From: Balneolales bacterium
GTDB lineage: Bacteria; Bacteroidota; Rhodothermia; Balneolales; Natronogracilivirgulaceae
DNA: 39,602 nt
Direction of reading: 5' to 3'
NCBI GenBank assembly: GCA_007120385.1
Contig: SKNT01000172.1
Span: 1-39,602, forward strand
Shown one piece after another: positions 25,561-31,888 of this stretch. Within the stretch, counting starts at the first letter, position 1. The number at the start of each line of letters is the position of its first letter. The notes under the pieces were generated by a model. That model worked only from the letters and a program-made list of their open reading frames with translations, made no database searches and was not told the origin of the DNA. Both the position numbers and the translations under genes were made by a program.

Positions 25561-28185
25561 ATGAAATACAGTTACTTACTATCTGTTGCGACTATTATAA
25601 CCCTGCTTCAGATGACCCTTCCGGTCCCAATGCAGGCCAACGACCAGGACACCCTCATCACAGCAGATGAATGGCTTCTTTTGGGGCCTGTTTCGGGCCA
25701 TGACCCGGTCTACCATGACGTACCGGGCATTGACGGCAGCACATGGAGTGTTGAGAATCTTTTGAAAACCGATCTGGCGCACTATGCTTCCTGGGTTCCG
25801 GCGGAAGGGGCACAGGTTTCCTGGTCCCGCAGCCAAAGACATGAGTGGAAGCTTGCCACTGCCGACGAACAGGGCGTGGCGCGGTTGCCTGAAGGGTCCG
25901 AATCGCATCATGACATCATGTGGGCGGCGGCTTACATTGAGACGGATCGGTTTGTCACGGGAATGCTTACTCTGAAAAGCCGCGGAATGTTGCGAGCTTT
26001 TCTGAATGGCGATGAGGTGGCTGTGAAACGGACCACACAGCCCTCAGATGAGGAAGAAGCCGGTAGTATCTGTCACCAATTCGAATTGAGGCGGGGCAAG
26101 CACCAGCTGCTGGTCAAGCTGTTGCATCCTTCCGAATCTGAAATACGCAACTGGTGGCTTCAGGCATCTTTGGAGGCGGGGGATCAGACCGGATCGCTGT
26201 CCTGGAGCCTAGATCCGGTGCGCACGGTGCTGCAGCGAGATATTTCAAATGCTCCGCGTCCGACCGGCATATCCATCAGTCCGGATGGTGACCTGGCTGC
26301 CGTTCATGTGCGGCAGGATCTTCCGCCGGACGGATCCACGGAGACCCGCATTGACATTCGCAGGACCGCTGACGGCTCGTTATTCCGCCGCTATGCCGGC
26401 GGGATGACAGTGACGGGCATGCAATGGGTGCCAGACGGTCGCCGCTTCAGCTACACTACCTCCGGCAGCAACGGGACGGACCTGTGGATTGTGAATCTCG
26501 AGACTGGTGAGAAGGACCGGATCCTGAAGGACATGAAAAAATTTACAGGATACCGCTGGTCACCAGATGCCTCCTTTCTTATATACAACCTTTGGGAGGA
26601 ACACAAACCGGGAACGCATGGCGTGATGCGCTATCACGGGTTGCAGGACCGGCGTCCGGACTATCACAGGCGCACCTTCCTGTATCAGCTCAACGTGCCG
26701 GAAGGTACAACGCGGCGTCTGACAGCCGGCCTGCTCTCCACCATGCTCGGCAGCATCCACCCTTCCGGAAAAGAGATCCTTTATCTGCGCTCCCATGAAG
26801 ATTACCGGGAGCGACCCTATGGCAAGATGGAATATGTGATCCTGGATCTTGAGACCATGCAGGCCGACTCGCTGTTCTCGCTTGACTTCGGAGGATTGGC
26901 ACAGTATTCGCCGGATGGCAACAGGATCCTTGTCATGGGCGGACCGAATGATTTTGAGGGCCTTGGAGTGAATTTGCCGGACACGGTTCTTGCCAACGAC
27001 TATGACACCCAGGCTTACGTTTATCATCGTGATTCGGGCGAAACAGAAGCTATTACACGTGATTTTGACCCTTCGGTATCGCTGGCCCGCTGGGATGAGT
27101 CCGGGCGTTACATCTTTTTCGTGACCACTGATGCGGCCTTTGAGCGGGTGTACCGTTATGATACCCGGGAACGCACCTTCCGCGGTTATGAGGGTGGACC
27201 GGATGTGGTGCTCTCACTGGATCTTGCGAGGAACAAGTCCGTGGCAGTGATGAGCGGTTCGGGCGCTTCCGACTCGCCAAAGACGTGGGTGATCGATTTC
27301 ACCAGGCGCAATCCGCAGGCACGGGTGCTATACGATCCGGGTGCCGAGGCATACCGTAGCATCCGTTTCGGTGAGGTCCGGCCGTGGTCTTTTGTCAGTG
27401 AGCGGGGCGATGAGATCGACGGCCATGTGTATTATCCGCCTGATTTTGATCCGGAACGCTCCTATCCTGTCATCGTGTACTACTATGGCGGTGCCACTCC
27501 GGTTTCGCGCGCTTTTGCCGGCCGCTATCCCAAGGAGCTGTATGCCTCCATGGGCTACCTTGTGTATGTAGTGCAGCCGAGCGGGGCCATCGGGTACGGG
27601 CAGGAATTTTCCGCCAGGCATGTCAACGACTGGGGCAAGGTTGCCGGGGACGAGATCATCCAGGGGACCCGGGCGTTTCTTGAGGCGCACACCTATGCAC
27701 ATCCGGAGCGTGTTGGCGCCATCGGTGCCTCCTACGGAGGATTCATGACGATGTACCTCCTTACGCAGACCGACCTGTTCGCCGCCGCCGTGTCGCATGC
27801 CGGCATCAGCAACCTGGCCGGCTATTGGGGCGAAGGGTTATGGGGCTTCCAGTACAGCGGTGTAGCAACGGCCGGAAGCTACCCCTGGAACCGGCACGAC
27901 ATTTATGTGGGACGCAGTCCGGTTTATAACGCCGACCGCATCCGCACCCCCCTCCTGCTGGTAACCGGCATGTCCGATACGAACGTCCCGCCTGGTGAAA
28001 GTCTGCAGATGTTCACGGCCCTGAAACTGCTTGGACGTGATGTGGCTTTTGTGGCGGTGGAGGATCAGGATCACCACATTCTGGACTACAACAAGTTTAT
28101 TCAGTGGAAAGATGCTATATTGTCGTGGTTTGATAAATGGCTTAAAGATGAGCCGCACTGGTGGGAGGAACGATTCGGCGATTGA
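25561..28185 (+). CDS. S9-family serine peptidase with N-terminal accessory domain
   Basis: This 874-residue exported peptidase combines a signal peptide (about 1-26), an N-terminal beta-sandwich-like segment (about 35-210, DEWLLLGPVSG, LKSRGMLRAFLNGDEVA), a PD40-type propeller (about 230-590) and a C-terminal alpha/beta-hydrolase domain. The catalytic triad is readable: Ser724 in GASYGGF, Asp806 in GMSDTNVPP and His838 in DQDHHIL. Family members cleave peptides, often after proline or as dipeptidyl/acyl-aminoacyl peptidases; the exact preference is not visible. With its signal peptide it probably feeds on external protein-derived peptides in the periplasm. The N-terminal segment resembles ligand-binding jellyrolls of secreted hydrolases and is not part of the minimal S9 architecture. 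A TATAAT-like stretch lies at 25536-25541. Confidence 0.92.
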   Translation: MKYSYLLSVATIITLLQMTLPVPMQANDQDTLITADEWLLLGPVSGHDPVYHDVPGIDGSTWSVENLLKTDLAHYASWVPAEGAQVSWSRSQRHEWKLATADEQGVARLPEGSESHHDIMWAAAYIETDRFVTGMLTLKSRGMLRAFLNGDEVAVKRTTQPSDEEEAGSICHQFELRRGKHQLLVKLLHPSESEIRNWWLQASLEAGDQTGSLSWSLDPVRTVLQRDISNAPRPTGISISPDGDLAAVHVRQDLPPDGSTETRIDIRRTADGSLFRRYAGGMTVTGMQWVPDGRRFSYTTSGSNGTDLWIVNLETGEKDRILKDMKKFTGYRWSPDASFLIYNLWEEHKPGTHGVMRYHGLQDRRPDYHRRTFLYQLNVPEGTTRRLTAGLLSTMLGSIHPSGKEILYLRSHEDYRERPYGKMEYVILDLETMQADSLFSLDFGGLAQYSPDGNRILVMGGPNDFEGLGVNLPDTVLANDYDTQAYVYHRDSGETEAITRDFDPSVSLARWDESGRYIFFVTTDAAFERVYRYDTRERTFRGYEGGPDVVLSLDLARNKSVAVMSGSGASDSPKTWVIDFTRRNPQARVLYDPGAEAYRSIRFGEVRPWSFVSERGDEIDGHVYYPPDFDPERSYPVIVYYYGGATPVSRAFAGRYPKELYASMGYLVYVVQPSGAIGYGQEFSARHVNDWGKVAGDEIIQGTRAFLEAHTYAHPERVGAIGASYGGFMTMYLLTQTDLFAAAVSHAGISNLAGYWGEGLWGFQYSGVATAGSYPWNRHDIYVGRSPVYNADRIRTPLLLVTGMSDTNVPPGESLQMFTALKLLGRDVAFVAVEDQDHHILDYNKFIQWKDAILSWFDKWLKDEPHWWEERFGD

Positions 28186-28267: not shown

Positions 28268-29473
28268 ATGAAAAAAATCGATATGAAAAAGGCACTAGTG
28301 GCAACCGCAGCTGTTATTTTATTTCTCATGCCGGAGGCCAGAGCGGCTGACTATCCGTCCAACTGGAGTCTGGATCTCAAGGGAGGTATCACTTCCGGCT
28401 TCTTTACATTCAATTCAAAAATCACCCCTCAGACTGGTATTCAGGTTAGGTATTCCATGAATCCTGTTGTGTCATTCTACGGTGACATGGCATTCGGACA
28501 GTTCCGTTCGCAGGATTCTATGCAGGACACCAACGGTTTTTCAAATGATTATTTTGCAGTTGGCCTGGGAACCCGGATGAACATTCTGCGGATGCTGACA
28601 GGCCTGAATTCTGTCACCGAGAGTTTCGGAATTTATGCCTCAACGGGCATTGGCCTGATGCGCGGCGATGTCAGTGTCTCTGATGTCGCTGTTCCGGGCT
28701 ATTCGAGCAGAAATGCTCCTGTCAATGCCATGGTGTACCGCATCTCAACCGGGGCTATGTACCGTATCAGCCGGCGGATTGATATTTTTGCGCAGGCCGA
28801 GTTCAACCATTCCGGAAGTGATCTGCTGGATGGCTACCAGCGGTTGGATGGCAGAAGCACCGGCCGTTTTACTGGCGGCGATTCCTTTGTAAATGCAAGC
28901 GGCGGCATCAGCATCAAGTTCGGTAGAAGCCAGGTGCGTCACGCCGACTGGCAGCAGTCGGACCATCGCACCGATCCGCTTGCCAGCTCACTGCAAAGTG
29001 ACATCTCCCGTCTCGAGGCCGAACTGGAAAAACAGGAACGTTCACACGAGCAGCTCACCCAGCGGCTTCAGTCGCTGAACCAGACCATCAACGAGTTCAG
29101 TTATCTGATCAATACCGCTCACAAGGAAGAGTTCAAGTTATACGACACCCAGCTTCTGAGTCTGCAGAACCGGATGGATCTGTTGCAATCCGATGTCAAC
29201 GATATCGCAGAGCAGGTGGAAACCACCCGGGTGGAACCGGATGATTACCGGTTCTTTGTAGTTGCCGCCGTTTACAGGAATATGGAGAATGCCGAGCGTG
29301 GTTTGCGCGGGGTCCGGGCTGCAGGATTTGATCAGGCCACCATACAGCAGGATCGTCGCCGCAACTACTACCTGATAGCATACAGCGGGCATACCACCCG
29401 GGAGGCTGCACTGGAAGAAATGAGACGGATCCGGGCGGAAGTGAACCCGGAATCATGGGTATATGTACAGTAA
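28268..29473 (+). CDS. Outer-membrane barrel / coiled-coil / SPOR protein, copy A
   Basis: The 401-residue product has a signal peptide (cleavage near ARAAD, residue 27), then about 190 residues of alternating strands compatible with an eight-stranded outer-membrane barrel (33-220, LDLKGGITSGFFTF, IQVRYSMNPVVSFYGDM, GISIKFG). A heptad-like segment at about 240-318 (ISRLEAELEKQERSHEQL) predicts a long coiled coil. The last 75 residues (327-401, YRFFVVAAVYRNMENAERGL...GFDQATIQ...YYLIAYSG) fit a SPOR domain, which binds glycan strands lacking stem peptides. So it could link outer membrane and cell wall. Translation could start at M1 or M6. It is followed after 12 bases by a paralogue. Domain layout is read by eye; the tether role is inference. 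Confidence 0.75.
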   Translation: MKKIDMKKALVATAAVILFLMPEARAADYPSNWSLDLKGGITSGFFTFNSKITPQTGIQVRYSMNPVVSFYGDMAFGQFRSQDSMQDTNGFSNDYFAVGLGTRMNILRMLTGLNSVTESFGIYASTGIGLMRGDVSVSDVAVPGYSSRNAPVNAMVYRISTGAMYRISRRIDIFAQAEFNHSGSDLLDGYQRLDGRSTGRFTGGDSFVNASGGISIKFGRSQVRHADWQQSDHRTDPLASSLQSDISRLEAELEKQERSHEQLTQRLQSLNQTINEFSYLINTAHKEEFKLYDTQLLSLQNRMDLLQSDVNDIAEQVETTRVEPDDYRFFVVAAVYRNMENAERGLRGVRAAGFDQATIQQDRRRNYYLIAYSGHTTREAALEEMRRIRAEVNPESWVYVQ

Positions 29474-29485
29474 CAGAGAAAAGCA

Positions 29486-30763
29486 ATGCACATCCCGTTC
29501 CATCTGAAGAGTAAAGCACTGTCCGCGGCGCTGGCTGCGGCCTGTCTGGTTTGCGGACTGATGACAGTGCGCCCTGTTCTGGCCGGTGATGCTTCCGGAG
29601 ACTGGAGCATCGATTTCAAAGGCGGGGTCACATCCGGCCAGTTCACCTTTGACTCGAGGATGACCGGCCACGGCGGACTTCAGCTCAGGTACTCGATGAA
29701 TCCGGACATTTCGCTGTATGGGTCGTTCGGTGTCGGGGTGTTTCGGGATGATAAATCCATGATGGAGATAACCGGTTTTTCCAATGACTACTTTGTTGGC
29801 GGGATCGGCGCCCGGGTGAATGTTCTGCACATGCTGGCCGGATCCTCATCTGTCTCCGAACGTTTGGCGGTCTATACCACCACGGGAATCCAGATGATGC
29901 GGGTGGATGTGCGCGTGCGCAACCGGGAACTTCAGGGATATGTCGGGAACAACTTTTCCGGAAATGCGATGGTGCTGAACCTGGGGGCCGGAGCCTCGTT
30001 CCGGATCAACCGCCGGGTCGACCTTTTTCTGCAAACCGAGCTGAATCACTCCGACAGCGATTTGCTGGACGGATATGAGCGGCTGCCCGGATCCTCGCGC
30101 ACGGGTTTCATCAGCGGCGGGGACTCGTTCATCAATACCAGTGCCGGGATAACGGTCAAGCTTGGCGGGTCGGACGTTCGCCACACCGACTGGCGGCACC
30201 GGGAGTGGGATGCACGTGCCGGATCCCGTCCTGCCTCATCGGTTGAGCAGGAGCTTGCGCGGATGCAGGAGCAACTGGAGCGAAGCGACCGCATCAAGGA
30301 GGAGCTGGCACGACGCCTGCAATCGCTCACCGCGAACCTGACCGAGTTCAGCGAGTTGATCAACACAACACAGCAACAGCAACTGGACACGCAGGACCTG
30401 AAGCTGGAGCAAATGCAGCGGCAAATGGACCAGCTTCAGGCGGAGATCGGACAGATAGCGGGGCGTGTCGCACCTGACGCGCCATCACCTCAAACACCGG
30501 CCGTTACGACGCCGCCCGAAGCGGACCCCGATCAGCCGCGCCATTATATTGTGGCCGGTGCCTTCCGGAACCGCGACAATGCCGCCAGGTTGCTGCAACA
30601 GATCACGGAAGAAGGGTTTGGTCAGGCCGCCCTTGTTACCGATGCAGGGCGCGGATTCCACATTGTGACGTATGTGTCCTATCCGACCAGAGAGCAGGCC
30701 GAGCAGGAACTCGCCAGAATCCGGTCACGTGCCAATCCCGATGCCTGGATATTTACCCAGTAG
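29486..30763 (+). CDS. Outer-membrane barrel / coiled-coil / SPOR protein, copy B
   Basis: This 425-residue protein is a clear paralogue of the preceding gene: both share WSxDxKGGxTSGxFTF, RYSMNP, GFSNDYF, LDGYxRL and GGDSFxNxSxGIxxKxG. It has a signal peptide ending near VLAGD, a barrel at about 35-222, a coiled coil at about 250-330 rich in Gln/Leu/Glu (ARMQEQLERSDRIKEELARR), a proline/threonine linker near 333-352 that copy A lacks, and a C-terminal SPOR domain (IVAGAFRNRDNAARLLQQIT). The two genes are 12 bases apart and surely co-transcribed. Extra linker length and divergence argue for distinct jobs or binding partners rather than simple dosage. It converges on the lipoate ligase gene with 72 bases between. 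Confidence 0.75.
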   Translation: MHIPFHLKSKALSAALAAACLVCGLMTVRPVLAGDASGDWSIDFKGGVTSGQFTFDSRMTGHGGLQLRYSMNPDISLYGSFGVGVFRDDKSMMEITGFSNDYFVGGIGARVNVLHMLAGSSSVSERLAVYTTTGIQMMRVDVRVRNRELQGYVGNNFSGNAMVLNLGAGASFRINRRVDLFLQTELNHSDSDLLDGYERLPGSSRTGFISGGDSFINTSAGITVKLGGSDVRHTDWRHREWDARAGSRPASSVEQELARMQEQLERSDRIKEELARRLQSLTANLTEFSELINTTQQQQLDTQDLKLEQMQRQMDQLQAEIGQIAGRVAPDAPSPQTPAVTTPPEADPDQPRHYIVAGAFRNRDNAARLLQQITEEGFGQAALVTDAGRGFHIVTYVSYPTREQAEQELARIRSRANPDAWIFTQ

Positions 30764-30835: not shown

Positions 30836-31888
30836 TCAGCGGGCCGTCTCCACACCCCTGACGCTCCTTTCTGCATCTTCCACATCGTCCTCGCCATAGA
30901 CAAGGTCAGCAAGGGCTTCGGCGCTTATGCCTTCCGAACCTGCGCTCTGCAGCAAGACGTCCGACAAGCAGGATTGCACATTCTCCCTGTCGTACCGGAT
31001 TCCTTCCAGGACATGGCTGAAAGCGGATAAATCGGCATCTCCATCGGAAATAAGGGTTATCTCTTCGATGTTTCCTCTGTTAACAAGCAGCTCGACGGAT
31101 ACGGACAGTCCGTTTATCATGCGAGTGCGCGTCACCCGGAATTTTGGTGACCGGCCGATGTTCCACTCCCAGCGGTTGTAGCGGGACTCGCGTATTTCCC
31201 GGATCTGTCCGAGGTCCGATTTTGTGAGCCGGTAATGCGGTCCGACCAGTCCCTCACGGACAAGCCCATCCAACAGATATTGGCGGAATTCACTGATATC
31301 CATTTGTACATCCAGGAACTCCGAAATATTGGCAACAACGCTGCGCACCGATTTGTGACTTTTAGACCGGATTTGTTTCATCCGGGTGGAAATCACCTGC
31401 TCGAGTTCTTTCAGTCCGGAGTTGAAGAGCAGTGTGCCGTGACTGAACATCCGTCCCCTTGAAGAGAACTGGGCGCTGCCGGAGATCTTGCGTCCGTCTG
31501 CCATGATATCATTGCGGTCGTTCATTTCTGCCGGCACGCCCATGGTGCGCAGAACCCGGACAATCGGAGCGTTGAAAAAATGGAAATTGTGGAGCCGGGA
31601 GGGTTCGTAGCGGGTGACAAAACTGAAATTCAGGTTTTGCGGGTCGTGATATACGGTACCTCCGCCAGAAAGGCGGCGAAGAACCGGGATCCCTTTATCC
31701 CTGACATAGGAGTCATGGACTTCTTCCAGGACATTCTGGTTGCGTCCGACAATGACCGACGGTTCGTTGCGGTAAAGCAGCAGATAGTCCCGGGACGGAT
31801 CCATGTGTCGAAGCACATACTCTTCGATCGCCAGGTTTGCTGCCGGGTCGGTAGTGTCTTCATTGTCAATAAAAACCAGTGATTTCAT
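30836..31888 (-). CDS. lplA: Lipoate-protein ligase A family protein
   Basis: LplA activates free lipoate with ATP and attaches it to lipoyl domains of 2-oxoacid dehydrogenases or glycine cleavage H protein. The 350-residue protein has the lipoyl-binding loop RRLSGGGTVYHD at 71-82, the NEPSVIVGRNQN segment at 41-52 and the catalytic-lysine motif GRKISGSAQ with Lys134. A C-terminal accessory domain (about 255-345) is present, as in complete LplA-type ligases. It is a single gene flanked by a convergent and a divergent neighbour. The last residues are acidic and arginine-rich and not conserved in the family as far as I recall. An alternative octanoyl-transferase role is less likely given the accessory domain. 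Confidence 0.9.
   Translation of the reverse strand: MKSLVFIDNEDTTDPAANLAIEEYVLRHMDPSRDYLLLYRNEPSVIVGRNQNVLEEVHDSYVRDKGIPVLRRLSGGGTVYHDPQNLNFSFVTRYEPSRLHNFHFFNAPIVRVLRTMGVPAEMNDRNDIMADGRKISGSAQFSSRGRMFSHGTLLFNSGLKELEQVISTRMKQIRSKSHKSVRSVVANISEFLDVQMDISEFRQYLLDGLVREGLVGPHYRLTKSDLGQIREIRESRYNRWEWNIGRSPKFRVTRTRMINGLSVSVELLVNRGNIEEITLISDGDADLSAFSHVLEGIRYDRENVQSCLSDVLLQSAGSEGISAEALADLVYGEDDVEDAERSVRGVETAR

Follow-up and report, generated by a model that had tools for sequence, protein, structure and literature searches.

Two adjacent genes of a Balneolales bacterium encode proteins that probably tether the outer membrane to the cell wall in an OmpA-like manner, with a SPOR domain in place of the OmpA C-terminal domain; we assign this reading a probability of about 70%. 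The genes, termed copy A and copy B, are located within the window, i.e. the whole stretch of 39,602 nucleotides that was analysed. The source bacterium presumably lives in a soda lake. The nearest named records are Balneolales metagenome-assembled genomes with the label CSSed, which denotes soda-lake sediment, and the Balneolaceae strain ANBcel3. The layout given in the preliminary description, two adjacent paralogues that combine an outer-membrane barrel, a coiled coil and a SPOR domain, was confirmed for both open reading frames (ORFs), and their features are as follows:

25561..28185, + strand: S9 (prolyl oligopeptidase family) peptidase, conserved upstream neighbour and locus marker (Pfam; synteny)
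28268..29473, + strand: copy A, barrel - coiled coil - SPOR protein, 401 aa (ORF; Pfam OMP_b-brl and SPOR; AlphaFold2, AF2; orthologues in seven genomes)
28268..28345, + strand: copy A signal peptide, residues 1-26, ending in ARA (sequence; AF2 helix 6-19; conserved in orthologues)
28364..28918, + strand: copy A eight-strand barrel, residues 33-217 (AF2 strands; Foldseek match to OmpA)
28976..29221, + strand: copy A coiled coil, about residues 237-318 (AF2 helices; heptad scan)
29249..29470, + strand: copy A SPOR domain, residues 328-401 (Pfam; AF2 b-a-b-b-a-b fold at 329-400; profile match to FtsN and CwlC structures)
29486..30763, + strand: copy B, paralogue of A, 425 aa (ORF; Pfam SPOR and OmpA_membrane; AF2; B clade support 100/99)
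29486..29584, + strand: copy B signal peptide, residues 1-33, ending in VLA (sequence; AF2 helix 5-26)
29603..30160, + strand: copy B eight-strand barrel, residues 40-225 (AF2 strands 40-52 to 213-225; Foldseek match to OmpA)
30236..30463, + strand: copy B coiled coil, residues 251-326 (AF2 helix; heptad scan)
30464..30541, + strand: copy B proline-rich linker, residues 327-352 (low pLDDT at 327-345; lineage-specific in the linker comparison)
30542..30760, + strand: copy B SPOR domain, residues 353-425 (Pfam; pLDDT about 90)
30836..31888, - strand: lipoate-protein ligase (LplA), conserved, convergent downstream neighbour and locus marker (Pfam; synteny)

Copies A and B are encoded on the same strand with a gap of 12 nt, while 82 nt separate the end of the S9 peptidase gene from the start of copy A and 72 nt the end of copy B from the lipoate-protein ligase gene. 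Synteny comparison revealed no cell-wall or division genes among the neighbours of the locus. Cys residues in the signal region of copy B had made it a candidate lipoprotein, which was rejected because its orthologues contain AxA-type sites instead of a conserved lipobox. A conserved lipobox is also absent from the signal peptide of copy A.

The presence of an eight-strand barrel, initially proposed from the sequence, is supported by structure prediction. The AF2 models of both copies, which were built on shallow alignments of homologues, consist of eight strands and a C-terminal domain with a beta-alpha-beta-beta-alpha-beta fold, and the top match of each model in a Foldseek search against the PDB is E. 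coli OmpA (E = 3.0e-10 for A and 7.3e-9 for B). The strands of copy A comprise residues 33-45, 53-63, 68-81, 91-105, 120-137, 150-166, 171-182 and 206-217. Pfam matches above the cut-off were obtained for OMP_b-brl in copy A (8.9e-8) and for OmpA_membrane in copy B (3.1e-5). The longer barrel loops are found on the outer side, with the exception of one 14-residue periplasmic turn. The outer loop between strands 7 and 8 of copy A (28814-28885) contains the motif S-D-L-L-D-G ... G-G-D-S-F, which belongs to the best-conserved segments of the barrel; this is unusual in a surface loop and perhaps marks a metal or ligand site.

Among the NCBIfam barrel models, the closest is that of the type IX secretion protein PorG (NF052316), with an E-value of 2.6e-7 for copy A, which could indicate that A and B are part of a type IX secretion or gliding system with a PorG-like barrel. 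This is highly improbable, because the scores of 30.6 bits for A and 22.8 bits for B are below the equivalog cut-off of 130, type IX neighbours are absent at the locus, and a PorG-like similarity is expected of any small Bacteroidota barrel. Membership of A and B in the PorG/type IX family was rejected on the basis of this cut-off.

The proposed SPOR identity of both C-termini was likewise upheld by Pfam and by comparison with solved structures. In copy B, residues 352-423 match SPOR with an E-value of 2.6e-11. In copy A, residues 328-398 reach 20.4 bits in hmmscan, just below the cut-off of 21, and 23.3 bits, above the cut-off, in the genome search with Pfam. A profile restricted to the SPOR domains of the family matched the SPOR domains of CwlC (1x60, 2.2e-5) and FtsN (1uta, 2.1e-4) in the PDB, and nothing beyond these two was above chance level.

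The region between barrel and SPOR domain is predicted to form two helices in copy A (residues 237-287 and 293-306) and a single helix in copy B (residues 251-326); the second half of the copy A coiled coil has low AF2 confidence. As the tether proposal had assumed, the coiled coil is placed on the periplasmic side rather than on the cell exterior, because the even number of strands brings a chain that enters the barrel from the periplasm back to the same side, and because OmpA-type peptidoglycan-binding domains are attached to the same scaffold in other proteins. About 80 helical residues would correspond to roughly 12 nm if they formed one extended helix (0.15 nm per residue). In most comparisons, no domain is less conserved than the coiled coil, whereas 11 of 18 measured proteins have 100-102 residues between the last barrel Trp and the SPOR domain and the remaining seven have 112-117. 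A stalk of near-constant length but free sequence is the pattern that a spacer would show. In copy A, the heptads are arranged in two blocks that are offset by one residue, and the heptad scan detected a one-residue shift at the equivalent position in each of the seven homologues with a SPOR end that were examined.

The longer class of 112-117 residues results from linkers that follow the coiled coil. The proline-rich linker of copy B had been regarded as a difference between the two copies and as a sign that they form a heteromer or work at two different distances, a view that is not sustained by the comparison of genomes. Four genomes have such a linker in copy B and one genome has it in copy A, as does one single-copy protein, whereas copy B of three genomes lacks it. 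In line with two reach lengths within an A-B heteromer, A and B are adjacent at one locus in all seven genomes of the genus in which the locus was seen, and their spacing differs (101 versus 112-116 residues) in G000, G002 and G009. However, the spacing is equal and linker-free in three of the seven pairs (101-102 residues in both copies of G001, G003 and G005), one pair has a linker in both copies, and both copies are long in G008 (117 and 116). We therefore consider such a heteromer unlikely. The linker itself was ruled out as a mark of copy B and of a heteromer because it is not conserved.

Homologues of the barrel and coiled coil were searched in 129 Balneolales genomes. An end-to-end match to the barrel-coil-SPOR profile was found in about 40 of them, covering four families. 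Among 116 other genomes of the class, no single match combined barrel and SPOR domain, which were present only separately, and none was found among the out-of-order genomes of a set of 296 phylum genomes either. Within the genomes surveyed, the full layout was encountered in Balneolales alone. The layout is not tied to the tandem, since the single-copy form occurs throughout the order and the tandem is restricted to one genus.

The inner end of these proteins appears to be exchangeable. At least 15 genomes of the genus g26 encode a homologous barrel and coiled coil that terminate in an OmpA domain (Pfam OmpA, 1.7e-23 to 4.1e-25), and the homologous barrel of other g26 genomes ends in a SPOR domain. 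In five g26 genomes (G106, G051, G058, G050 and G105), the homologous barrel proteins L102-L106 (609-726 aa) have a long coiled coil followed by an acidic linker and a single, strongly hydrophobic C-terminal helix, whose peak Kyte-Doolittle value is 1.9-2.4, compared to less than 1.0 for A and B. These proteins are possibly single-protein straps that run from the outer to the inner membrane. All six barrels examined from outside the order, which were the closest ones, end in OmpA-type domains. The barrel tree requires at least five changes of the C-terminal module (OmpA domain, SPOR domain or predicted transmembrane helix), with the reservation that its deep branches are weakly supported and that some rows are long. 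In the own genome of A and B, three of the four OmpA-domain proteins are lipoproteins, the fourth is MotB/ZorB-like and none is a barrel, so the wall-linking barrels found there are of the SPOR kind. The SPOR domain is read as a replacement of the OmpA wall-binding domain mainly because the module has been exchanged on homologous barrels and because the OmpA-domain proteins of the own genome lack a barrel.

Several further genes were noticed in these searches. The own genome contains a second gene for a barrel-coil-SPOR protein (L097:5227-7769, G000:C19; also L098 and L137). Next to it is a paralogue whose sequence stops after the barrel, and the surrounding genes appear to serve polysaccharide synthesis. 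An OmpA-domain protein with an N-terminal transmembrane segment (L189, G000:C69:70-402) is encoded next to a long coiled-coil ORF, and the two resemble the ZorA/ZorB pair of the Zorya defence system. A search of viral protein families provided nothing useful.

A connection between outer membrane and cell wall, as initially suggested, is still the best explanation for A and B, given that the same scaffold carries OmpA-type peptidoglycan-binding domains elsewhere. In the proposed mechanism, the signal peptide would export A and B, and the eight-strand barrel would insert into the outer membrane with both ends in the periplasm. The coiled coil (~75-80 residues, roughly 12 nm) would then extend from the barrel towards the peptidoglycan, probably within an oligomer, and the SPOR domain at its tip would hold the glycan strands of the peptidoglycan, which in OmpA is the task of the C-terminal domain. 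The basis of this reading is computational and includes the domain order, the barrel and SPOR folds, synteny, gene duplication, the repeated exchange of the C-terminal module and the near-constant stalk length; glycan binding, the oligomeric state, the mechanical role and the choice between general and septal binding are what we infer.

Constriction of the outer membrane together with the wall is largely the task of Tol-Pal in E. coli. A and B could serve a related purpose as septum-directed tethers, in which the SPOR domain binds the peptide-free glycan that amidases produce at the division site and the barrels pull the outer membrane inwards. This is conceivable but doubtful. Each of the seven genomes tested contains enzymes of the Amidase_3 family, and the own genome encodes two RlpA homologues, so that a denuded-glycan ligand may exist. 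TolB_N had no match in G000, G005, G008, G013, G017, G028 and G051 while control genomes were positive, but a single-domain search is no proof that Tol-Pal is absent. The missing match fits the need for another constriction tether and proves nothing. Genomes contain two to four barrel tethers each, which is more typical of general envelope proteins.

In favor of a septal role, FtsN, DamX and RlpA are known to bind denuded glycan through their SPOR domains (PMC6895207), and the residues involved have been defined. In the structure of SPOR-RlpA with denuded glycan, contacts are provided by Gln 270 and by Arg 302, 309 and 311; Gln 270 and Arg 309 correspond to Gln 251 and Arg 285 of FtsN, both of which are required for its septal localisation (PMC6895207). 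Alignment to FtsN revealed that all members of the A/B family contain Val/Ile at the position of Gln 251 and Leu/Ile/Val at that of Arg 285, whereas the Gln is kept in both RlpA homologues of the own genome and also in the SPOR domain of L097. Septal targeting, as put forward in the preliminary description, is therefore unproven. Gln and Arg at these positions are a preference of the SPOR family and not an absolute requirement, and glycan binding by the A/B SPOR domains can neither be deduced from these positions nor taken as assured. Speculatively, nearby Arg-rich turns and a conserved C-terminal Trp, which might correspond to DamX W416, could form another binding face. A Cytophaga SPOR domain reportedly localises to the septum in E. 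coli. A C-terminal, Gln-less SPOR-like domain is also found in secretin-like proteins of about 580-660 aa in relatives of the order (L025, L026, L033, L034 and L035).

The loss of the known glycan-contact side chains could also mean that the SPOR domain mainly acts as a protein-protein or self-assembly module, such that barrels clustered by their coils recruit a periplasmic partner and bind little peptidoglycan. In line with this, the SPOR domains of A and B have diverged quickly and share 37-51% identity. This explanation is nevertheless improbable, because the domain has been exchanged with OmpA-type peptidoglycan-binding domains on the same scaffold. In addition, contacts between SPOR domains and glycan are mostly made by the main chain (PMC6895207), and low conservation of side chains is thus compatible with glycan binding.

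A and B are real genes, as shown by their conservation in seven genomes of the genus with dS well above dN. The dN/dS ratios are well below 1 in all three domains (roughly 0.03-0.24 for pairs with estimable dS), of which only the direction is safe because several dS values are saturated. This indicates that purifying selection acts on the barrel, the coiled coil and the SPOR domain. The gene order EF-G, asparaginase, exonuclease, S9 peptidase, barrel gene(s), lipoate ligase, M20 peptidase and FtsH, the latter identified from its sequence, is maintained across the family, and four other genera contain a single copy at the same locus. In G011 (L120:568-4252, G011:C224), the site is empty and the S9 gene directly abuts the lipoate ligase gene, which shows that the barrel gene is dispensable in this genus. 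The tree resolves the A sequences and the B sequences as one clade each (support 100/99), and these two clades group together (99/99) to the exclusion of the single-copy relatives. As judged from this branching order, the pair results from one tandem duplication at the base of one genus, from a single-copy gene that stayed in place.

A and B share with OmpA and OprF a barrel of the same size and fold, periplasmic N- and C-ends and a C-terminal wall-binding module, but they differ by the absence of PF00691 (no Pfam match), by the SPOR domain in its place and by the intervening coiled coil of ~75-80 residues. Since PF00691 is absent, they do not belong to OmpA by membership, although they would be OmpA-like in their working. 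OmpM and SlpA are large porin-type barrels with SLH domains N-terminal to the barrel. Different from this arrangement, A and B have a small barrel of only eight strands first and the SPOR domain last, and no SLH match. The combination of barrel, coiled coil and wall-binding domain in a single-protein tether is nonetheless common to A, B, OmpM of diderm Firmicutes (PMC10628300) and SlpA of Deinococcus (PMC9388160). With FtsN, DamX, DedD and RlpA, A and B have the C-terminal SPOR domain in common (Pfam; profile match to the FtsN structure), but their anchor is an outer-membrane barrel and they have not retained the Gln and Arg that contact glycan. FtsN, DamX, DedD and RlpA themselves are inner-membrane proteins or lipoproteins. 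The Braun lipoprotein Lpp is similar only by analogy, as a coiled-coil spacer that sets the distance between outer membrane and wall; it is covalently linked, lipid-anchored and devoid of a barrel or SPOR domain. The BamP protein of F. johnsoniae, whose periplasmic domains contact BamD and the POTRA domains of BamA and which inserts a loop into the BamA barrel (PMC12611786), was ruled out as a model, because A and B are barrels themselves and BamP is not. Searches of the open-licence literature yielded no report of a protein that combines a barrel with a SPOR domain, which is weak evidence of absence.

As a less probable extension of this reading, the barrel on its coiled-coil stalk of near-fixed length may be an interchangeable envelope strap in Balneolales, which a SPOR domain, an OmpA domain or a transmembrane helix as inner end would anchor to septal or modified glycan, ordinary peptidoglycan or the inner membrane, with the SPOR form linked to division in bacteria without a recognisable TolB. 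The known tethers between outer membrane and wall comprise OmpA/Pal, Lpp, the SLH-type proteins OmpM and SlpA and covalently linked barrels, and a SPOR domain on an OmpA-like barrel would add another. SPOR domains, OmpA domains and transmembrane helices on homologous barrels constitute a natural series for studying how outer membrane and wall are spaced, and the nearly constant stalk length of the SPOR family offers a route to what sets this spacing. The same series also poses the question of whether a tether can be confined to particular sites of the wall.
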